A DNA stretch of 64,000 bases from Alteromonas macleodii (GTDB lineage Bacteria; Pseudomonadota; Gammaproteobacteria; Enterobacterales; Alteromonadaceae), in NCBI RefSeq assembly GCF_903772925.1, contig NZ_LR812090.1:1570333-1634332 (forward strand), read 5' to 3'. This document shows positions 5,737-31,069 of this stretch, in pieces. The translations under genes were made by a program, and so were the position numbers. Positions within the stretch are counted from its first letter, which is position 1; every line of letters begins with the position of its first letter. The notes beneath the pieces were generated by a model. It did no database searches. It saw nothing but the letters and a program-made list of their open reading frames with translations, and had not been told where the DNA came from.

Positions 5737-5812
5737 TGGCTGGGGTAACAGGACTCGAACCTATGAATGGCGGGATCAAAACCCGCTGCCTTACCAACTT
5801 GGCTATACCCCA
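5737..5812 (-). tRNA. tRNA-Gln(TTG), copy 1
   Basis: A 76-nt cloverleaf with encoded CCA, acceptor TGGGGTA/TACCCCA with G discriminator, and anticodon stem GCGGG with loop TTTTGAT (anticodon TTG). Last gene of the eight-tRNA operon. Confidence 0.97.
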
Positions 5813-5816
5813 ATTT

Positions 5817-5901
5817 TGGTGCGGAAGGAGAGACTTGAACTCTCACGCCGTGAAGCACTGGAACCTAAATCCAGCGTGTCTACCAATTCCACCACTTCCG
5901 C
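5817..5901 (-). tRNA. tRNA-Leu(TAG), copy 1
   Basis: An 85-nt class II tRNA with long variable arm, acceptor GCGGAAG/CTTCCGC, discriminator A and encoded CCA. The anticodon loop TTTAGGT gives anticodon TAG, equivalent to leuW of Escherichia coli. Confidence 0.97.
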
Positions 5902-5933
5902 AATGTAGACTTCCAATTAAGGAATGTAAAAGT

Positions 5934-6010
5934 TGGTGGCTACGGCGAGATTCGAACTTGCGACCCCATCATTATGAGTGATGTGCTCTAACCAACTGAG
6001 CTACGTAGCC
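5934..6010 (-). tRNA. tRNA-Met(CAT), elongator, copy 1
   Basis: A 77-nt cloverleaf with acceptor GGCTACG/CGTAGCC, CCA and anticodon CAT. It closely resembles the elongator tRNA metT/metU of E. coli and lacks initiator features such as the three G-C pairs below the anticodon. Confidence 0.96.
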
Positions 6011-6026
6011 TAAACTTTTATCTTCA

Positions 6027-6052
6027 ATAAAAAGCCGCTCGATGAGCGGCTT
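6027..6052 (-). terminator. Terminator-like hairpin inside the tRNA cluster
   Basis: The stem AAGCCGCTC/GAGCGGCTT with loop ATC on the minus strand is followed by T-rich sequence. The stem has the same sequence as the operon's final terminator. It lies between Gln copy 2 and Met copy 1, so it may uncouple the last three tRNAs or be a relic of duplication. Confidence 0.7.
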
Positions 6053-6062
6053 CTCAAGAATT

Positions 6063-6138
6063 TGGCTGGGGTAACAGGACTCGAACCTATGAATGGCGGG
6101 ATCAAAACCCGCTGCCTTACCAACTTGGCTATACCCCA
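6063..6138 (-). tRNA. tRNA-Gln(TTG), copy 2
   Basis: Same sequence as copy 1 over all 76 nt, anticodon TTG, CCA encoded. It is followed on its 3' side by the internal terminator-like hairpin. Confidence 0.97.
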
Positions 6139-6142
6139 GTCG

Positions 6143-6227
6143 TGGTGCGGAAGGAGAGACTTGAACTCTCACGCCGTGAAGCACTGGAACCTAAATCCAG
6201 CGTGTCTACCAATTCCACCACTTCCGC
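6143..6227 (-). tRNA. tRNA-Leu(TAG), copy 2
   Basis: Same 85-nt sequence as copy 1, anticodon TAG. It lies 4 nt from Gln copy 2. Confidence 0.97.
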
Positions 6228-6262
6228 GTAGACGCTAGCTATAATAGTCATTCAAAAAAGAA

Positions 6263-6338
6263 TGGCTGGGGTAACAGGACTCGAACCTATGAATGGCGGG
6301 ATCAAAACCCGCTGCCTTACCAACTTGGCTATACCCCA
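6263..6338 (-). tRNA. tRNA-Gln(TTG), copy 3
   Basis: Same 76-nt sequence as copies 1 and 2, anticodon TTG, CCA encoded. Confidence 0.97.
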
Positions 6339-6342
6339 GTCG

Positions 6343-6427
6343 TGGTGCGGAAGGAGAGACTTGAACTCTCACGCCGTGAAGCACTGGAACCTAAATCCAG
6401 CGTGTCTACCAATTCCACCACTTCCGC
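6343..6427 (-). tRNA. tRNA-Leu(TAG), copy 3
   Basis: Same 85-nt sequence as the other two copies. The 4-nt spacer to Gln copy 3 is identical to the Leu2-Gln2 spacer, showing duplication of a Leu-Gln unit. Confidence 0.97.
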
Positions 6428-6462
6428 GCAGCTAGACTTTCCTAAAAGAGATAACAGAGAAT

Positions 6463-6539
6463 TGGTGGCTACGGCGAGATTCGAACTTGCGACCCCATCA
6501 TTATGAGTGATGTGCTCTAACCAACTGAGCTACGTAGCC
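6463..6539 (-). tRNA. tRNA-Met(CAT), elongator, copy 2; first gene of the operon
   Basis: A 77-nt cloverleaf identical to copy 1, anticodon CAT. As the promoter-proximal gene it gives the transcription order Met-Leu-Gln-Leu-Gln-Met-Leu-Gln, similar to metT-leuW-glnU-glnW-metU-glnV-glnX of E. coli. Confidence 0.96.
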
Positions 6540-27391: not shown

Positions 27392-27420
27392 AAAAAGCCG
27401 GTCATTCGACCGGCTTTTTT
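27392..27420. terminator. Bidirectional intrinsic terminator
   Basis: AAAAAGCCGGTC and GACCGGCTTTTTT form the stem with a 4-nt loop. It lies between convergent fusA and cynS. Confidence 0.92.
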
Positions 27421-27439: not shown

Positions 27440-27889
27440 TTAGTACATTTTGTATGGTAAAAACTTCCCTGACATAACTACGCTCACGCGGTCGCCTTTA
27501 GGGTCGTTCTCACGCTGTAAATCCATTGAGAAATCAATCGCGCTCATAATACCGTCGCCAAACTCTTCATGGATAAGTTCTTTTAAGGTAGTGCCATATA
27601 CATTTACGAGTTCATACCAGCGATAAATAAGCGGGTCGGTAGGCACTTCTGTGGGTAATGAGCCTTTATAAGGTACGATTTGAAGCCAAGCAATGGCTTC
27701 GTCGGTAAGTTCAAGTAATTCGCCTACCGCTTCTGCTTGTTGCTTTGTCATGGCCATCTGGCCTAAGCAAGCGGCAGTACTCCACTCTTTAGACTGACCT
27801 ACAACCTCAGCAATTTGGCTCCACTTTATGCCTTTTAGAATTTTGGCTGATTGGATCATGTCGGTAACTTGTGTTCTTGATGTAATCAT
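27440..27889 (-). CDS. cynS: Cyanate hydratase (cyanase)
   Basis: A 149-residue enzyme that converts cyanate and bicarbonate to ammonia and CO2 through carbamate. The catalytic residues align with E. coli Arg96, Glu99 and Ser122 as Arg90 (LIYRWYE), Glu93 and Ser116 (GIMSAIDF). The N-terminal helix-turn-helix-like domain is complete and the length is typical. GAGGAAA precedes the ATG. It starts 18 bp after the kinase/phosphatase gene and is the last gene of the operon. It supplies ammonium from cyanate, fitting the nitrogen-type promoter upstream of the first gene. Confidence 0.97.
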   Translation of the reverse strand: MITSRTQVTDMIQSAKILKGIKWSQIAEVVGQSKEWSTAACLGQMAMTKQQAEAVGELLELTDEAIAWLQIVPYKGSLPTEVPTDPLIYRWYELVNVYGTTLKELIHEEFGDGIMSAIDFSMDLQRENDPKGDRVSVVMSGKFLPYKMY

Positions 27890-27907: not shown

Positions 27908-29797
27908 TTAATTAAACAAAATGAGCGTTACTAGGTTGCAAACAATAAGGGCCAGTATTAGTGCTTTGTAGACAAAAAGCGGATGGCGCTTTACTAAGGG
28001 CTGATACGTTGTGTGCTCAGAAGGATTTGGGTAGCGCAGCGAGTGTATAAACTCTGAAAGCGAAGAGTAGCGTTTGTCAGGGTTTATGTGTAAGGCACGC
28101 TTAAGCGCACTATCAACCCAAGTAGGTATTCGCCTTTTAGGATCTAACGCCGTCTCGTATTTTAGTTTTTTCTGTTCAGCAAAAGTGCGACAGTGGGCAA
28201 GCTTGGTATGGTAAGGATAACGACCACATAAAAGGTAATAAGTGAGTACGGCTAAGGAAAATAAATCAGAGCGCTCGGTGCCTACATTTCCTAAAAAGTA
28301 TTCTGGTGCAGCAAAGAGTGCTGCGCCAGGAATAGGCGCATCACTATAAAGACTGGGGGCATTTTGTAAGGCAGCTGATCCAAGGTCAATAAGGGTACAG
28401 TGACCGAGTTCGCTGATGATAATATTGTCGGGACGTATATCCCTGTGAAGAATGCCCTGGCGATGCATTGCCTGTAATCCATTACAGACTTGCTCAACAA
28501 TATTCCGAACTTGTTCTAATGAAGGTGTAGGGTTATCAATAGACCACTGTGCCAAGGTCTGCCCTTGTACATAGCTACTCACGCTATAAAAGGCTGTGGG
28601 TGTGTTTTTATAACCCAAGTCCGTAAACGTGGGGCTTTTTACAATATGGGGTGAGTCGACCCGCCTTAAAAACCAATTCTCTATTAGAAAACCGTTTAGC
28701 ATTTCAGGTGATTGGGAAAAGTCAGTGGCTGGTGTTTTTACAACTACAGTATCATACGGGTTTGCAACGGGTGACGTGCGTCGCGTGGCGATAAATACAT
28801 GACTGCGCGCAGAAGTATAAAGCTGTCGCTTTAAGTTAAAGCCATCTATTTCATCGCCTGTTTTAAGTTCGGTAAACGCTAACTCGCCGGTAGTCTTTAG
28901 TGGTAATTTATCATCATTATAGCCGGCTGCATTAGATACACCGTGACAGTTGCTATCTATTTCTCCAGTAGCCGTAATCAAGCTTTGTTCACCATCAATA
29001 TCACCACTACTACCAACATCAATATTACCGAACTCGACTTTTATAAGCAGAAGGGTGAGGTTATCATCGCTTCCATTGTTAAACGCTTCGTGTACCACTA
29101 AAGCAGCTTGGTTTTCAGATAGCGTATAAGCATTATTTATTTTATTGAGTATGCTCGGTAGCGCTACAAATTCATAAACGCCGTCGGTACTTATCGCAAT
29201 GGTACTTGGTGAGGTTAACGTTAATGAAGTGTGGTCAATATCGATACTTGCTGTAACGCCCAACGCATTAGCAAGGTAAGTTTGTGAAGGTTCACTATCT
29301 GATGCTTGTCGATGAGGGCGAGTTAGCAATATAGGGTCTTTAGCATTACTTGTAACAACCTGAATTTGGCTATCTCCAACGTGAAATACGTCAAGGCGAT
29401 TGCCGGTTACGATTGCTACCGAAAATGTGCACACATAGCCTTTTTCTGGGGTGTAGCAAAAAGCGCTTTTCTGCGTTCGGGTATAAAGCAGTGCATTAAT
29501 TTCTTTAATAATGGTTTCGGCGCGGGTTTTGACCGTCCATTGTTCGGGCGCTATGTTAAACAGCTTAGTAAACTGGCGTGTGGCAAAATCGCTAGCAACC
29601 TGGCTTACCGTGCTACTGCTGACACCGTCAGCAACTATAAAAATGCTACTTTGATTTAGCTCGTCAGAGGAAACGTGGTAGGTGTAAGCATCCTGGTTTA
29701 TGTCTTTGATGCCAGTTGTTGAAAAAGCACTTACTGAAAGTGTGCAAGGTAGCGAGGAGTTCGATGTTTTTAGCGCTGCTTGCTTATTCATATTCAA
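27908..29797 (-). CDS. PP2C phosphatase/serine-threonine kinase fusion with C-terminal membrane anchor
   Basis: A 629-residue protein. Residues about 20-255 are a PP2C-type phosphatase with metal motifs DINQDAY, VADGVSS, HVGDSQ, TDGVYE and GSDDNLT. Residues about 315-590 are a Hanks-type kinase with VVVKTP (ATP Lys), LHRDIRPDN catalytic loop, IDLGSA in place of DFG, and APEYF. A hydrophobic segment at about 605-627 anchors it in the membrane. The start is probably TTG at 29797, since AGGAAA lies 7 nt upstream; an ATG two codons later is spaced too far. It lies between a formate/nitrite-type channel and cyanase. Such fusions accompany nitrate/nitrite assimilation genes in related bacteria; target proteins are unknown. 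Confidence 0.92.
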   Translation of the reverse strand: MNMNKQAALKTSNSSLPCTLSVSAFSTTGIKDINQDAYTYHVSSDELNQSSIFIVADGVSSSTVSQVASDFATRQFTKLFNIAPEQWTVKTRAETIIKEINALLYTRTQKSAFCYTPEKGYVCTFSVAIVTGNRLDVFHVGDSQIQVVTSNAKDPILLTRPHRQASDSEPSQTYLANALGVTASIDIDHTSLTLTSPSTIAISTDGVYEFVALPSILNKINNAYTLSENQAALVVHEAFNNGSDDNLTLLLIKVEFGNIDVGSSGDIDGEQSLITATGEIDSNCHGVSNAAGYNDDKLPLKTTGELAFTELKTGDEIDGFNLKRQLYTSARSHVFIATRRTSPVANPYDTVVVKTPATDFSQSPEMLNGFLIENWFLRRVDSPHIVKSPTFTDLGYKNTPTAFYSVSSYVQGQTLAQWSIDNPTPSLEQVRNIVEQVCNGLQAMHRQGILHRDIRPDNIIISELGHCTLIDLGSAALQNAPSLYSDAPIPGAALFAAPEYFLGNVGTERSDLFSLAVLTYYLLCGRYPYHTKLAHCRTFAEQKKLKYETALDPKRRIPTWVDSALKRALHINPDKRYSSLSEFIHSLRYPNPSEHTTYQPLVKRHPLFVYKALILALIVCNLVTLILFN

Positions 29798-29861: not shown

Positions 29862-29900
29862 GCCATCACGACTTAATATAAAGGTTTATGTCGTGATGGC
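29862..29900 (-). repeat. Inverted repeat between the channel and kinase genes
   Basis: GCCATCACGAC (29862-29872) and GTCGTGATGGC (29890-29900) pair perfectly over 11 bp with a 17-nt loop. No T-run follows on the minus strand, so it is more likely an mRNA processing or stability element than a terminator. Confidence 0.7.
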
Positions 29901-29920: not shown

Positions 29921-30769
29921 TTAGATAGGTAGCGTTTGAGATGCCGCTGCTTTATCAACAGGGATTGTACGCTTTGGCAATGTCTTCACGTGGGTGGTAT
30001 AAAGCGTTAGGCCAGTAAACGCTAAACCGCCTACTAGGTTGCCTAGTGCTGTTGGAATTTCATTCCAAATGAAGTAATCCATTACAGAGAAATCACCGCC
30101 CATGATAAGACCAAATGGGAAAAGGAACATATTTACCACAGAGTGTTCAAAACCCATGAAGAAGAACAGCATGATGGGCATCCACATAGCCAACACCTTA
30201 CCGCTTACGTGAGTTGAGATCATCGCTCCTACAACGCCTAGAGACACCATCCAGTTACATAGCATGCCGCGGATGAAAATGGTGAACCAGCCAGCTGCGC
30301 CATGCTCTGCATAGCCTAACGTTCGGGCTTCGCCAATACTGGCAACCTTGGTCGCAATAGCGCCGCCATCTACGTTGTAGCCCATGGTAAAAATAAACGA
30401 CATCATAAAGGCAACGGTTAATGCGCCGCCGAAGTTACCTAAGAAGACTAAGCCCCAGTTTCGTAATATCTGTTTCGGGGTAACCCCTGGGCGCTGGGCA
30501 AGCCATGCTAGCGGCGTTAATACAAACACGCCGGTTAAAAGGTCGAAACCCATAAGGTAAAGCATACAAAAGCCAACCGGGAACAGCACGGCTCCTAGTA
30601 GGAAAATACCAGTTTGAACGGCTATGGTAATTGCAAAAACGGCAGCGAGTGCCAAGATTGCGCCTGCCATATAAGCGCGTATTAAAGTATCTCGTGTAGA
30701 CATATAAATCTTCGCTTCGCCTGCATCTACCATTTTGGTCGCAAACTCAGCGGGGAGAAGATAAGCCAT
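29921..30769 (-). CDS. Formate/nitrite transporter (FNT) family channel
   Basis: A 282-residue inner-membrane protein with six helices of the FocA/NirC family, pentameric channels for small monovalent anions. Signatures are FPVGFCMLYLMGFDLLTG, NFGGAL, RGMLCNWMVSLGVV and GFEHSVVNMF with the central conserved His. GAGGTG lies 6 nt before the ATG. It is the first gene of an operon with the kinase/phosphatase and cyanase. The genome neighbourhood makes nitrite or cyanate the likely cargo; the sequence alone does not decide. Confidence 0.92.
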   Translation of the reverse strand: MAYLLPAEFATKMVDAGEAKIYMSTRDTLIRAYMAGAILALAAVFAITIAVQTGIFLLGAVLFPVGFCMLYLMGFDLLTGVFVLTPLAWLAQRPGVTPKQILRNWGLVFLGNFGGALTVAFMMSFIFTMGYNVDGGAIATKVASIGEARTLGYAEHGAAGWFTIFIRGMLCNWMVSLGVVGAMISTHVSGKVLAMWMPIMLFFFMGFEHSVVNMFLFPFGLIMGGDFSVMDYFIWNEIPTALGNLVGGLAFTGLTLYTTHVKTLPKRTIPVDKAAASQTLPI

Positions 30770-30850: not shown

Positions 30851-30900
30851 AAAAAAAGGCGTCCGCAGCACTCTCGTTAGAAAGAACTGGGGACGCCTTT
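30851..30900 (-). terminator. Leader terminator (attenuator) upstream of the FNT gene
   Basis: On the minus strand AAAGGCGTCC and GGACGCCTTT form a perfect 10-bp stem with a 26-nt loop followed by TTTT. It lies in the 5' leader, about 80 nt before the start codon, not after a gene. Its 5' arm is shared with the second AAAGGC hairpin, so the two structures exclude each other. Confidence 0.88.
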
Positions 30901-30975
30901 GTCCAAAAATTGTGCATTGTAGTAGCTATCAGTCGTAATTTTTTAAACGCTTTATATGTGCACGCCTTTGTACAC
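30891..30975 (-). promoter_or_regulatory. Two-hairpin ANTAR-type antiterminator leader
   Basis: Hairpin P1 (30958-30975, minus strand) is GTGTAC-AAAGGC-GTGCAC with a six-pair stem including one G-T pair. Hairpin P2 (30891-30904) is GGAC-AAAGGC-GTCC. Both have the identical hexaloop AAAGGC, with A at position 1 and G at position 4, the recognised pattern for ANTAR-domain antiterminators such as NasR, NasT, AmiR and EutV. P2 overlaps the 5' arm of the terminator. The 53-nt linker between P1 and P2 is longer than usual. No ANTAR protein gene lies in the window. Confidence 0.72.
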
Positions 30976-31053
30976 CAAAGTTCCTAAGCAATATTACATA
31001 GCAGCCATCGCTTCGAACTTTAATAACTATGGTTTTAAAACACCAAAGAAGTA

Positions 31054-31069
31054 GCCAAAAAAGTGCCAA
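31054..31069 (-). promoter_or_regulatory. Sigma-54 promoter of the FNT-kinase-cynS operon
   Basis: On the minus strand TTGGCAC-N5-TGGCT gives the invariant GG-N10-GC spacing of the -24/-12 elements. Transcription would start near 31042, about 67 nt before hairpin P1. This matches nitrogen-regulated assimilation operons such as nasF of Klebsiella. Confidence 0.68.

Follow-up and report, generated by a model that had tools for sequence, protein, structure and literature searches.

A predicted NasR-type antitermination leader in front of a channel-kinase-cyanase operon of Alteromonas macleodii

In the marine bacterium Alteromonas macleodii, the operon encoding a channel, a kinase fusion and cyanase, which converts cyanate to ammonia, is very probably controlled by an ANTAR-type antitermination switch, which NasR would operate in response to nitrate or nitrite and which lies behind a putative nitrogen-limitation promoter. 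Leaders of this type are known; cyanase would be a new target of ANTAR proteins. That cyanase depends on nitrate or nitrite is so far a strong prediction. The window analyzed, a stretch of 64,000 nucleotides, belongs to a genome consisting of one contig of 4,665,060 bases.

Leader and operon in the window

On the minus strand, read from 31069 to 30851, the leader was composed of a sigma54-like element, a first hairpin (P1), a linker, a second hairpin (P2) and a terminator. The sigma54-like -24/-12 element, TTGGCACTTTTTTGGCT (31053..31069), agreed with the consensus at 10 of 11 positions, which points to a sigma54/Ntr-type promoter preceding the leader. P1 (GTGTAC-AAAGGC-GTGCAC, 30958..30975) and P2 (GGAC-AAAGGC-GTCC, 30891..30904) are separated by a linker of 53 nt (30905..30957); both display, as read in the preliminary description, the same AAAGGC hexaloop with A1 and G4, closed in each case by a C:G pair. 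The intrinsic terminator (30855..30900) is followed by a T run reaching 30851, and its outer stem consists of 10 perfect base pairs between AAAGGCGTCC (30900-30891) and GGACGCCTTT (30864-30855), with more pairing inside. Since the loop and the 3' arm of P2 constitute the 5' arm of this terminator, the two structures are mutually exclusive, an overlap already described earlier and now confirmed in the sequence. The terminator ends ~85 nt before the channel gene. The possibility that it merely terminates the upstream gene was rejected, given that it lies ~360 nt past the stop of that gene (31263) and after the sigma54-like site.

The terminator stretch folded with -28.7 kcal/mol (z -6.65; equalled by 0 of 200 shuffles), P2 with -4.8 kcal/mol (z -1.44; equalled by 14 of 200) and P1 alone with -7.5 kcal/mol. 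With P2 so much weaker than the terminator, termination should be the default, and a protein would be required for P2 to form. P1 did not appear in the minimum-energy fold predicted for the leader, which counts against antitermination, and the part containing both hairpins without the terminator folded no better than its shuffles (z -0.11). The arrangement exceeds chance: over both strands of the window, paired hairpins with the same A1/G4 hexaloop (stem of at least 4, at most 90 nt apart) were found at two places, one of them the leader, and three A1/G4 hairpins were overlapped by terminator-like stems of 8 bp or more, only that of the leader reaching 10 bp. The exact pattern ACAAAGGCGT had 14 copies in the genome, two of them in the leader, and 7 when read backwards; being common in both directions, this short pattern is no evidence on its own.

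At the gathering threshold, the search of the whole window against Rfam returned tRNAs only. Eight tRNA matches lay within 800 bp at 5740-6539, in repeated groups. A permissive scan recovered the P11 leader (RF00625) with 17 bits, below its gathering threshold of 70. The covariance search suggested in the preliminary description was weakly informative as far as Rfam is concerned, and its result served as a lead only; a model of our own, R1, did match the leaders of the genus but is not independent of them (see below).

Three genes follow on the minus strand: a channel of the formate/nitrite transporter family of 282 aa (29921..30769; PF01226, E 4.6e-64), a fusion of PP2C phosphatase and protein kinase of 629 aa (27908..29797; PF13672 and PF00069) and the cyanase CynS of 149 aa (27440..27889; PF02560, and TIGR00673 with 172.5 bits over a cut-off of 113.3). 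The gaps between them measure 123 nt (channel-kinase) and 18 nt (kinase-cynS), and the three genes are presumably co-transcribed. A terminator-like hairpin recognized by eye after cynS (GCCGGTC/GACCGGC, 27392..27420) probably marks the end of the operon. The channel matched five NCBIfam models, in each case under the cut-off, and its lowest E-value among solved chains was obtained with LCIA (9v2a). It could carry nitrite, cyanate or bicarbonate, the last being a co-substrate of cyanase. In a cyanobacterial FNT channel, the uptake of nitrite was not inhibited by nitrate, cyanate or formate (PMC4390861).

In the kinase part of the fusion, the PF00069 match starts only at position 27 and the glycine-loop region looks degenerate by eye, with VVVK, HRDIRPDN and DLG-like motifs kept. 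Between genomes whose channels were 98-100% identical, the fusion showed 64-83% identity (first-listed tblastn segments). Additionally, a perfect 11-bp inverted repeat, GCCATCACGAC/GTCGTGATGGC, with a 17-nt loop and no T run, is located between the channel and kinase genes (29862-29900) and could be an RNA-stabilising or processing hairpin.

The ANTAR protein and related leaders

Exactly one ANTAR match was present in the genome, a protein of 446 aa with NIT (PF08376) and ANTAR (PF03861) domains that matched the solved NasR of Klebsiella (4akk, E 1.5e-36). The NasR/NasT-like protein postulated in the preliminary description is thus a NasR, and its NIT-ANTAR composition is that of the regulator in NasR/nasF-type regulation. 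The nasR gene lies on the minus strand ~3 kb before nirB, which is on the plus strand; a permease-like gene, assigned by reading, is located between them, and a nirD-like gene follows nirB.

The leader resembles that of nasF in Klebsiella oxytoca in its NIT-ANTAR protein, in the two A1/G4 hexaloop hairpins with C:G closing pairs, in a terminator that is bypassed on binding and in a nitrogen-limitation promoter, which in nasF is sigma54-dependent. It differs in its target, nitrate assimilation genes in nasF and channel-kinase-cyanase in the window, and in the P1-P2 linker of 53 nt. The nalA leader of Pseudomonas, which we take to be the same as P11 (RF00625), also carries a P2 loop AAAGGC over a terminator, and the P2 sequence GGACAAAGGCGUCC is found in the Rfam consensus line as well; matches of our detector likewise preceded nirB in Pseudomonas and Stutzerimonas loci. 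That leader works with NasT/NasS on nirBD, whereas NasR and cyanase are concerned here and the P11 score stayed at the low value given above. In Pseudomonas nalA, a sigma54/NtrC promoter, the leader and the ANTAR protein NasT control nirBD (PMC12830290). The SELEX motif of NasR consists of A1/G4 hexaloops with C:G closing pairs, which the window loops match; tandem hairpins were bound by NasR only with nitrate or nitrite among the tested ions (those named are nitrate, nitrite, sulfate, sulfite, carbonate and guanidinium), and nitrate increased read-through from 5% to 52% in this system (PMC7496416). The eut leaders of Enterococcus faecalis, recognized by EutV, are also dual-hairpin antiterminators with P2 overlapping the terminator, but they depend on the two-component system EutVW and on ethanolamine, and their linkers measure 5-12 nt. 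When the eutP linker was set to 14 nt, induction was drastically reduced, which counts against the reading for a leader with a linker of 53 nt; the general ANTAR-target motif was defined with a variable linker (PMC3369931 for both points and for the eut leaders). A survey of sigma54 regulons found cyanate lyase enriched in alpha- and gamma-Proteobacteria (PMC12316311). No report of ANTAR control of cyanase was found in the open-access literature searched.

In the preferred reading, nitrogen limitation would lead to transcription from the sigma54 promoter, probably driven by NtrC, and RNA polymerase would by default halt at the strong terminator. NasR, carrying nitrate or nitrite, would bind the hexaloop hairpins; P2 would be held closed, its 3' arm and loop would be kept out of the terminator, and read-through into the genes for the channel, the PP2C-kinase and cyanase would rise. 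The NIT domain and the linkage to nirB suggest nitrate or nitrite as the signal.

Conservation in the genus and beyond

In 59 genomes of the genus, the channel, an ANTAR protein and nirB (over its cut-off) were each detected in 46 and cynS in 40; a partial nirB match in G053, below the cut-off, came in addition. The presence of channel and ANTAR protein differed in two genomes only: G012 lacked the channel in spite of its ANTAR protein and nirB, and G053 had a channel with an R1 match and no ANTAR match, which counts against the switch, in an assembly with 7% contamination and 590 contigs. Each of the 46 channel genes was followed, on its own strand, by a kinase-fusion match. P2 with an overlapping terminator was found before all 46 channel genes, P2 starting 106 to 143 nt upstream, and the same detector fired in 9 of 2300 shuffled upstream regions. 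By coordinates, 29 of the 40 cynS genomes have cynS directly after channel-kinase. The remaining 11 have it elsewhere, channel-kinase preceding nirB instead, and each of these lone cynS genes had a P2-terminator leader of its own, 93 to 110 nt upstream (nine of them with another stem, GAGC, GGGC or GGGT instead of GGAC/GGAT), together with a sigma54-like site matching at 9 or 10 of 11 positions. Hence, all 40 cynS genes of the genus stand behind such a leader. The strongest evidence for the switch is the leader of the lone cynS genes, which indicates that the switch accompanies cynS in whichever operon it lies. Furthermore, cynS was present in 40 of the 46 genomes with an ANTAR protein and in none of the 13 without (Fisher 7e-9, a statistic that ignores phylogeny).

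The arrangement of the nasF/nas leaders that the preliminary description had recognized is accordingly supported by NasR and by the conservation of P2 and terminator, and neither a lack of hexaloop conservation nor a lack of ANTAR protein was found outright. Its expectation for the leaders of orthologous operons held for the P2 loop and the terminator (46 of 46 channel genes and 11 of 11 lone cynS) and only partly for the P1 loop, which was of the A1/G4 kind in six of the nine closest leaders (L111, L113, L114, L115, L117 and L120) and departed from it in three (L112, L116 and L121), which counts against the reading.

At least 9 of the 11 positions of the sigma54-like element were matched by 36 of the 57 genus leaders, against a mean of 1.5 in shuffles, and by 51 of 61 further leaders, against a mean of 2.2. 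A scan of seven leaders for NtrC sites, which had no control, gave 8 to 10 of 12 positions and was set aside as evidence.

Model R1 was built from 49 leaders, 18 of them from genus genomes and no fewer than six others from named loci of Alteromonas, and is not independent because it was built from leaders that it then finds. With E 0.01 or better, it returned 56 sites in the 59 genus genomes, namely the 46 channel leaders (that of G053 included) and those of 10 of the 11 lone cynS genes, missing the one of G004. No other site was returned in these genomes, and none in the 13 without the channel, with the stricter filters being able to lose weak matches. In G023 (L118), the cynS match lies in two separate pieces on the contig; the leader there keeps P2 and terminator and has no P1 of the kind seen in its close relatives.

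For covariation, 49 of 92 non-redundant leaders were picked by hand, the eight leaders with G1 loops being among those left out. The pairing of P2 is full by construction because the detector that supplied the rows demands both hairpins; no genus row was lost through this demand. Cells changed on both sides numbered 24 in P2 and 28 in the terminator, and for each structure this count, the covariation score and the percentage paired were all reached by 0 of 500 shuffles. The number of pairs with changes on both sides showed no excess over shuffles (P2 168/500, terminator 102/500), nor did that of further pair types (P2 497/500, terminator 191/500). The 5' arm of P2 (columns 4-7), which lies outside the terminator, changed together with the 3' arm.

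In nine close leaders, the P1 helix had 96.3% of its cells paired and two pairs changed on both sides. When it was counted jointly with a middle hairpin, 3 of 500 shuffles attained the number of cells changed on both sides and the covariation score, and there was no excess of pairs with changes on both sides (213/500) or of further pair types (473/500). This middle hairpin belongs to the linker of close relatives, where 70.4% of its cells are paired, and is not formed by the window sequence. Within the 110 nt preceding P2, 29 of the 92 leaders had an A1/G4 hexaloop hairpin with 5 bp or more, against 4.2 (sd 2.3) in shuffles; in 54 of 92 there was no such hairpin of even 4 bp upstream of P2, which counts against the reading. 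As loop controls in the same leaders, C1 and T1/T4 showed no clear excess and A1/A4 a slight one (10 vs 6.5); hexaloop hairpins of any loop were also in excess (73 vs 51.4). The eight lone-cynS leaders of this set had no hexaloop P1 within 50 nt. The hexaloop P1 is real as a class and often degenerate.

The P1 candidates listed were 9 to 91 nt away from P2; in two nirB leaders of Pseudomonas, the distance was 49 nt (L102) and 52 nt (L108). The linker of 53 nt is at the long end of this range and not alone there; in the window and one sister leader it is ~10 nt longer than in the other seven aligned leaders. Already named as the weak point at the outset, it remains one, being outside the 5-12 nt of eut. 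The linker just before P2 (often ACAA) was complementary to the RNA just after the terminator (often TTGT) in L034-L036, L074, L116, L121, L147, L148, L150, L151 and others; L148 reached 13 pairs and L151 reached 12. Among the 92 leaders, 21 had runs of at least 8, compared with 12 on average and 18 at most when the downstream part was shuffled 20 times, and the longest run averaged 6.52, against 6.02 (maximum 6.16) with swapped partners. Might this pairing form an outer helix of the read-through RNA?

Outside the genus set, with which it shares some genomes, a set of named channel loci (the best 80 of 584) contained cynS in 26, and 20 of these 26 had a P2-terminator leader before the channel. 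No such leader preceded the channel in L041, L045, L049, L067, L098 and L100; L045 and L100 kept a hexaloop hairpin with no qualifying terminator. In a family sample of 147 genomes, cynS was present in 29, of which 28 had an ANTAR match (the exception being G104). The leader was found in 16 of these 29, 14 by the detector and two by eye (L208 and L209); four of the 14 were obtained with the standard setting and 10 at a looser limit of 3 bp, five of those having only 3 bp. The remaining 13 cynS genomes had no such leader, which counts against the antitermination reading. The 16 matches of R1 in this sample fell into 15 genomes, each of which also had an ANTAR match; the 72 genomes lacking an ANTAR match gave none. 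Twelve of these matches precede a channel gene. The other four (G061, G154, G162 and one in G110) are near no channel, cynS or nirB and count against the reading; one of them adjoins an ANTAR gene, and otherwise none of the six probe genes was nearby. Several ANTAR proteins of the family sample were NasT-sized (~210 aa, open-frame length), so that the leader appears to go with either the NasR or the NasT type.

A P2 loop GACGGC or GACGGT, with G1 in place of A1, was seen in L044, L059, L068, L072, L075, L086-L088, L209, L214, L216 and L219. Six of the eight named loci with this loop are from Marinobacter, the P1 candidate of L044 also has G1 (GACGTA), and the loop has possibly changed together with the ANTAR protein. 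In one cynS-first cluster (L211, from 5531 on), an AAAGGC-loop hairpin overlapping a terminator-like stem of 14 bp lies between the channel and kinase genes.

Signal and meaning of the switch

The same switch might respond to cyanate, alone or in addition, since this too is a small anion, as nitrite is; cyanase would then be induced by its substrate, which we consider improbable. The cynFABDS operon of Pseudomonas pseudoalcaligenes CECT5344, which shares a putative sigma54 promoter with the present operon and is itself repressed by ammonium, is induced by cyanate through CynF, includes an ABC transporter, and is described in the accessible text with no mention of a leader terminator. In that organism, nitrate does not induce cyanase (145 vs 2677 with cyanate), which counts against the nitrate signal, although a different cyn operon is concerned (PMC6627978). 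Cyanate is not among the ions named for NasR, the word being absent from the text of PMC7496416, and nasR divergently adjoins the channel-kinase-cynS operon in L043, L063, L065, L069 and L093. On the other hand, all cynS genomes of the genus (40 of 40) had nirB and an ANTAR protein, and six of the 46 ANTAR genomes had nirB with no cynS, which makes nitrate assimilation the constant partner; moreover, channel leaders followed by nirB and those followed by cynS share one type.

That the terminator is real and the hairpins are read by no ANTAR protein, sigma54 and NtrC alone exerting control, is very unlikely. The variability of P1 and its place outside the predicted fold would fit such attenuation, as would the leader of G053 and the cynS-first clusters among the 13 family genomes without leader, of which all eight inspected by eye had a sigma54-like element ahead of cynS and no attenuator there. 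The joint change of the P2 arms, one of them outside the terminator, argues against it, as do the R1 matches of the family sample, all in ANTAR genomes. Least credible of all is a leader that acts for the sake of nitrite uptake through the channel, with cyanase as a passenger of no functional meaning: nirB follows channel-kinase in 15 of the 46 channel-bearing genomes of the genus, but all 11 stand-alone cynS genes keep their own leader, most with other stems, and their own sigma54-like site.

With NasR and nitrate or nitrite as the preferred reading, the simplest one is that cyanase belongs here to the nitrate-assimilation regulon. Cyanate is a marine nitrogen source, and, to our knowledge, cyanase has been found to be induced by cyanate wherever its control was studied (PMC6627978, for instance). 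The switch predicts that in these bacteria cyanase is made when nitrate is present and ammonium scarce, and would extend the known targets of ANTAR leaders to cyanase. More tentatively, and with doubt outweighing confidence, cyanase, induced by nitrate or nitrite and not by cyanate, may be a standing part of this regulon in Alteromonas and within parts of the marine groups related to it; either these NIT-ANTAR proteins would also read cyanate or nitrate assimilation would create a need for cyanase. A metabolic link of the latter kind was not found in the open-access literature searched. Some nirB genes were preceded by another type of P2, GGC-AACGAA-GCC or GGGC-AACGAA-GCCC, over a terminator (L010:11830-11885, L150, L152 and L230); the first of these, assigned by eye, is the nirB leader of the genome studied here, and in the three genus genomes concerned R1 listed the channel leader only.
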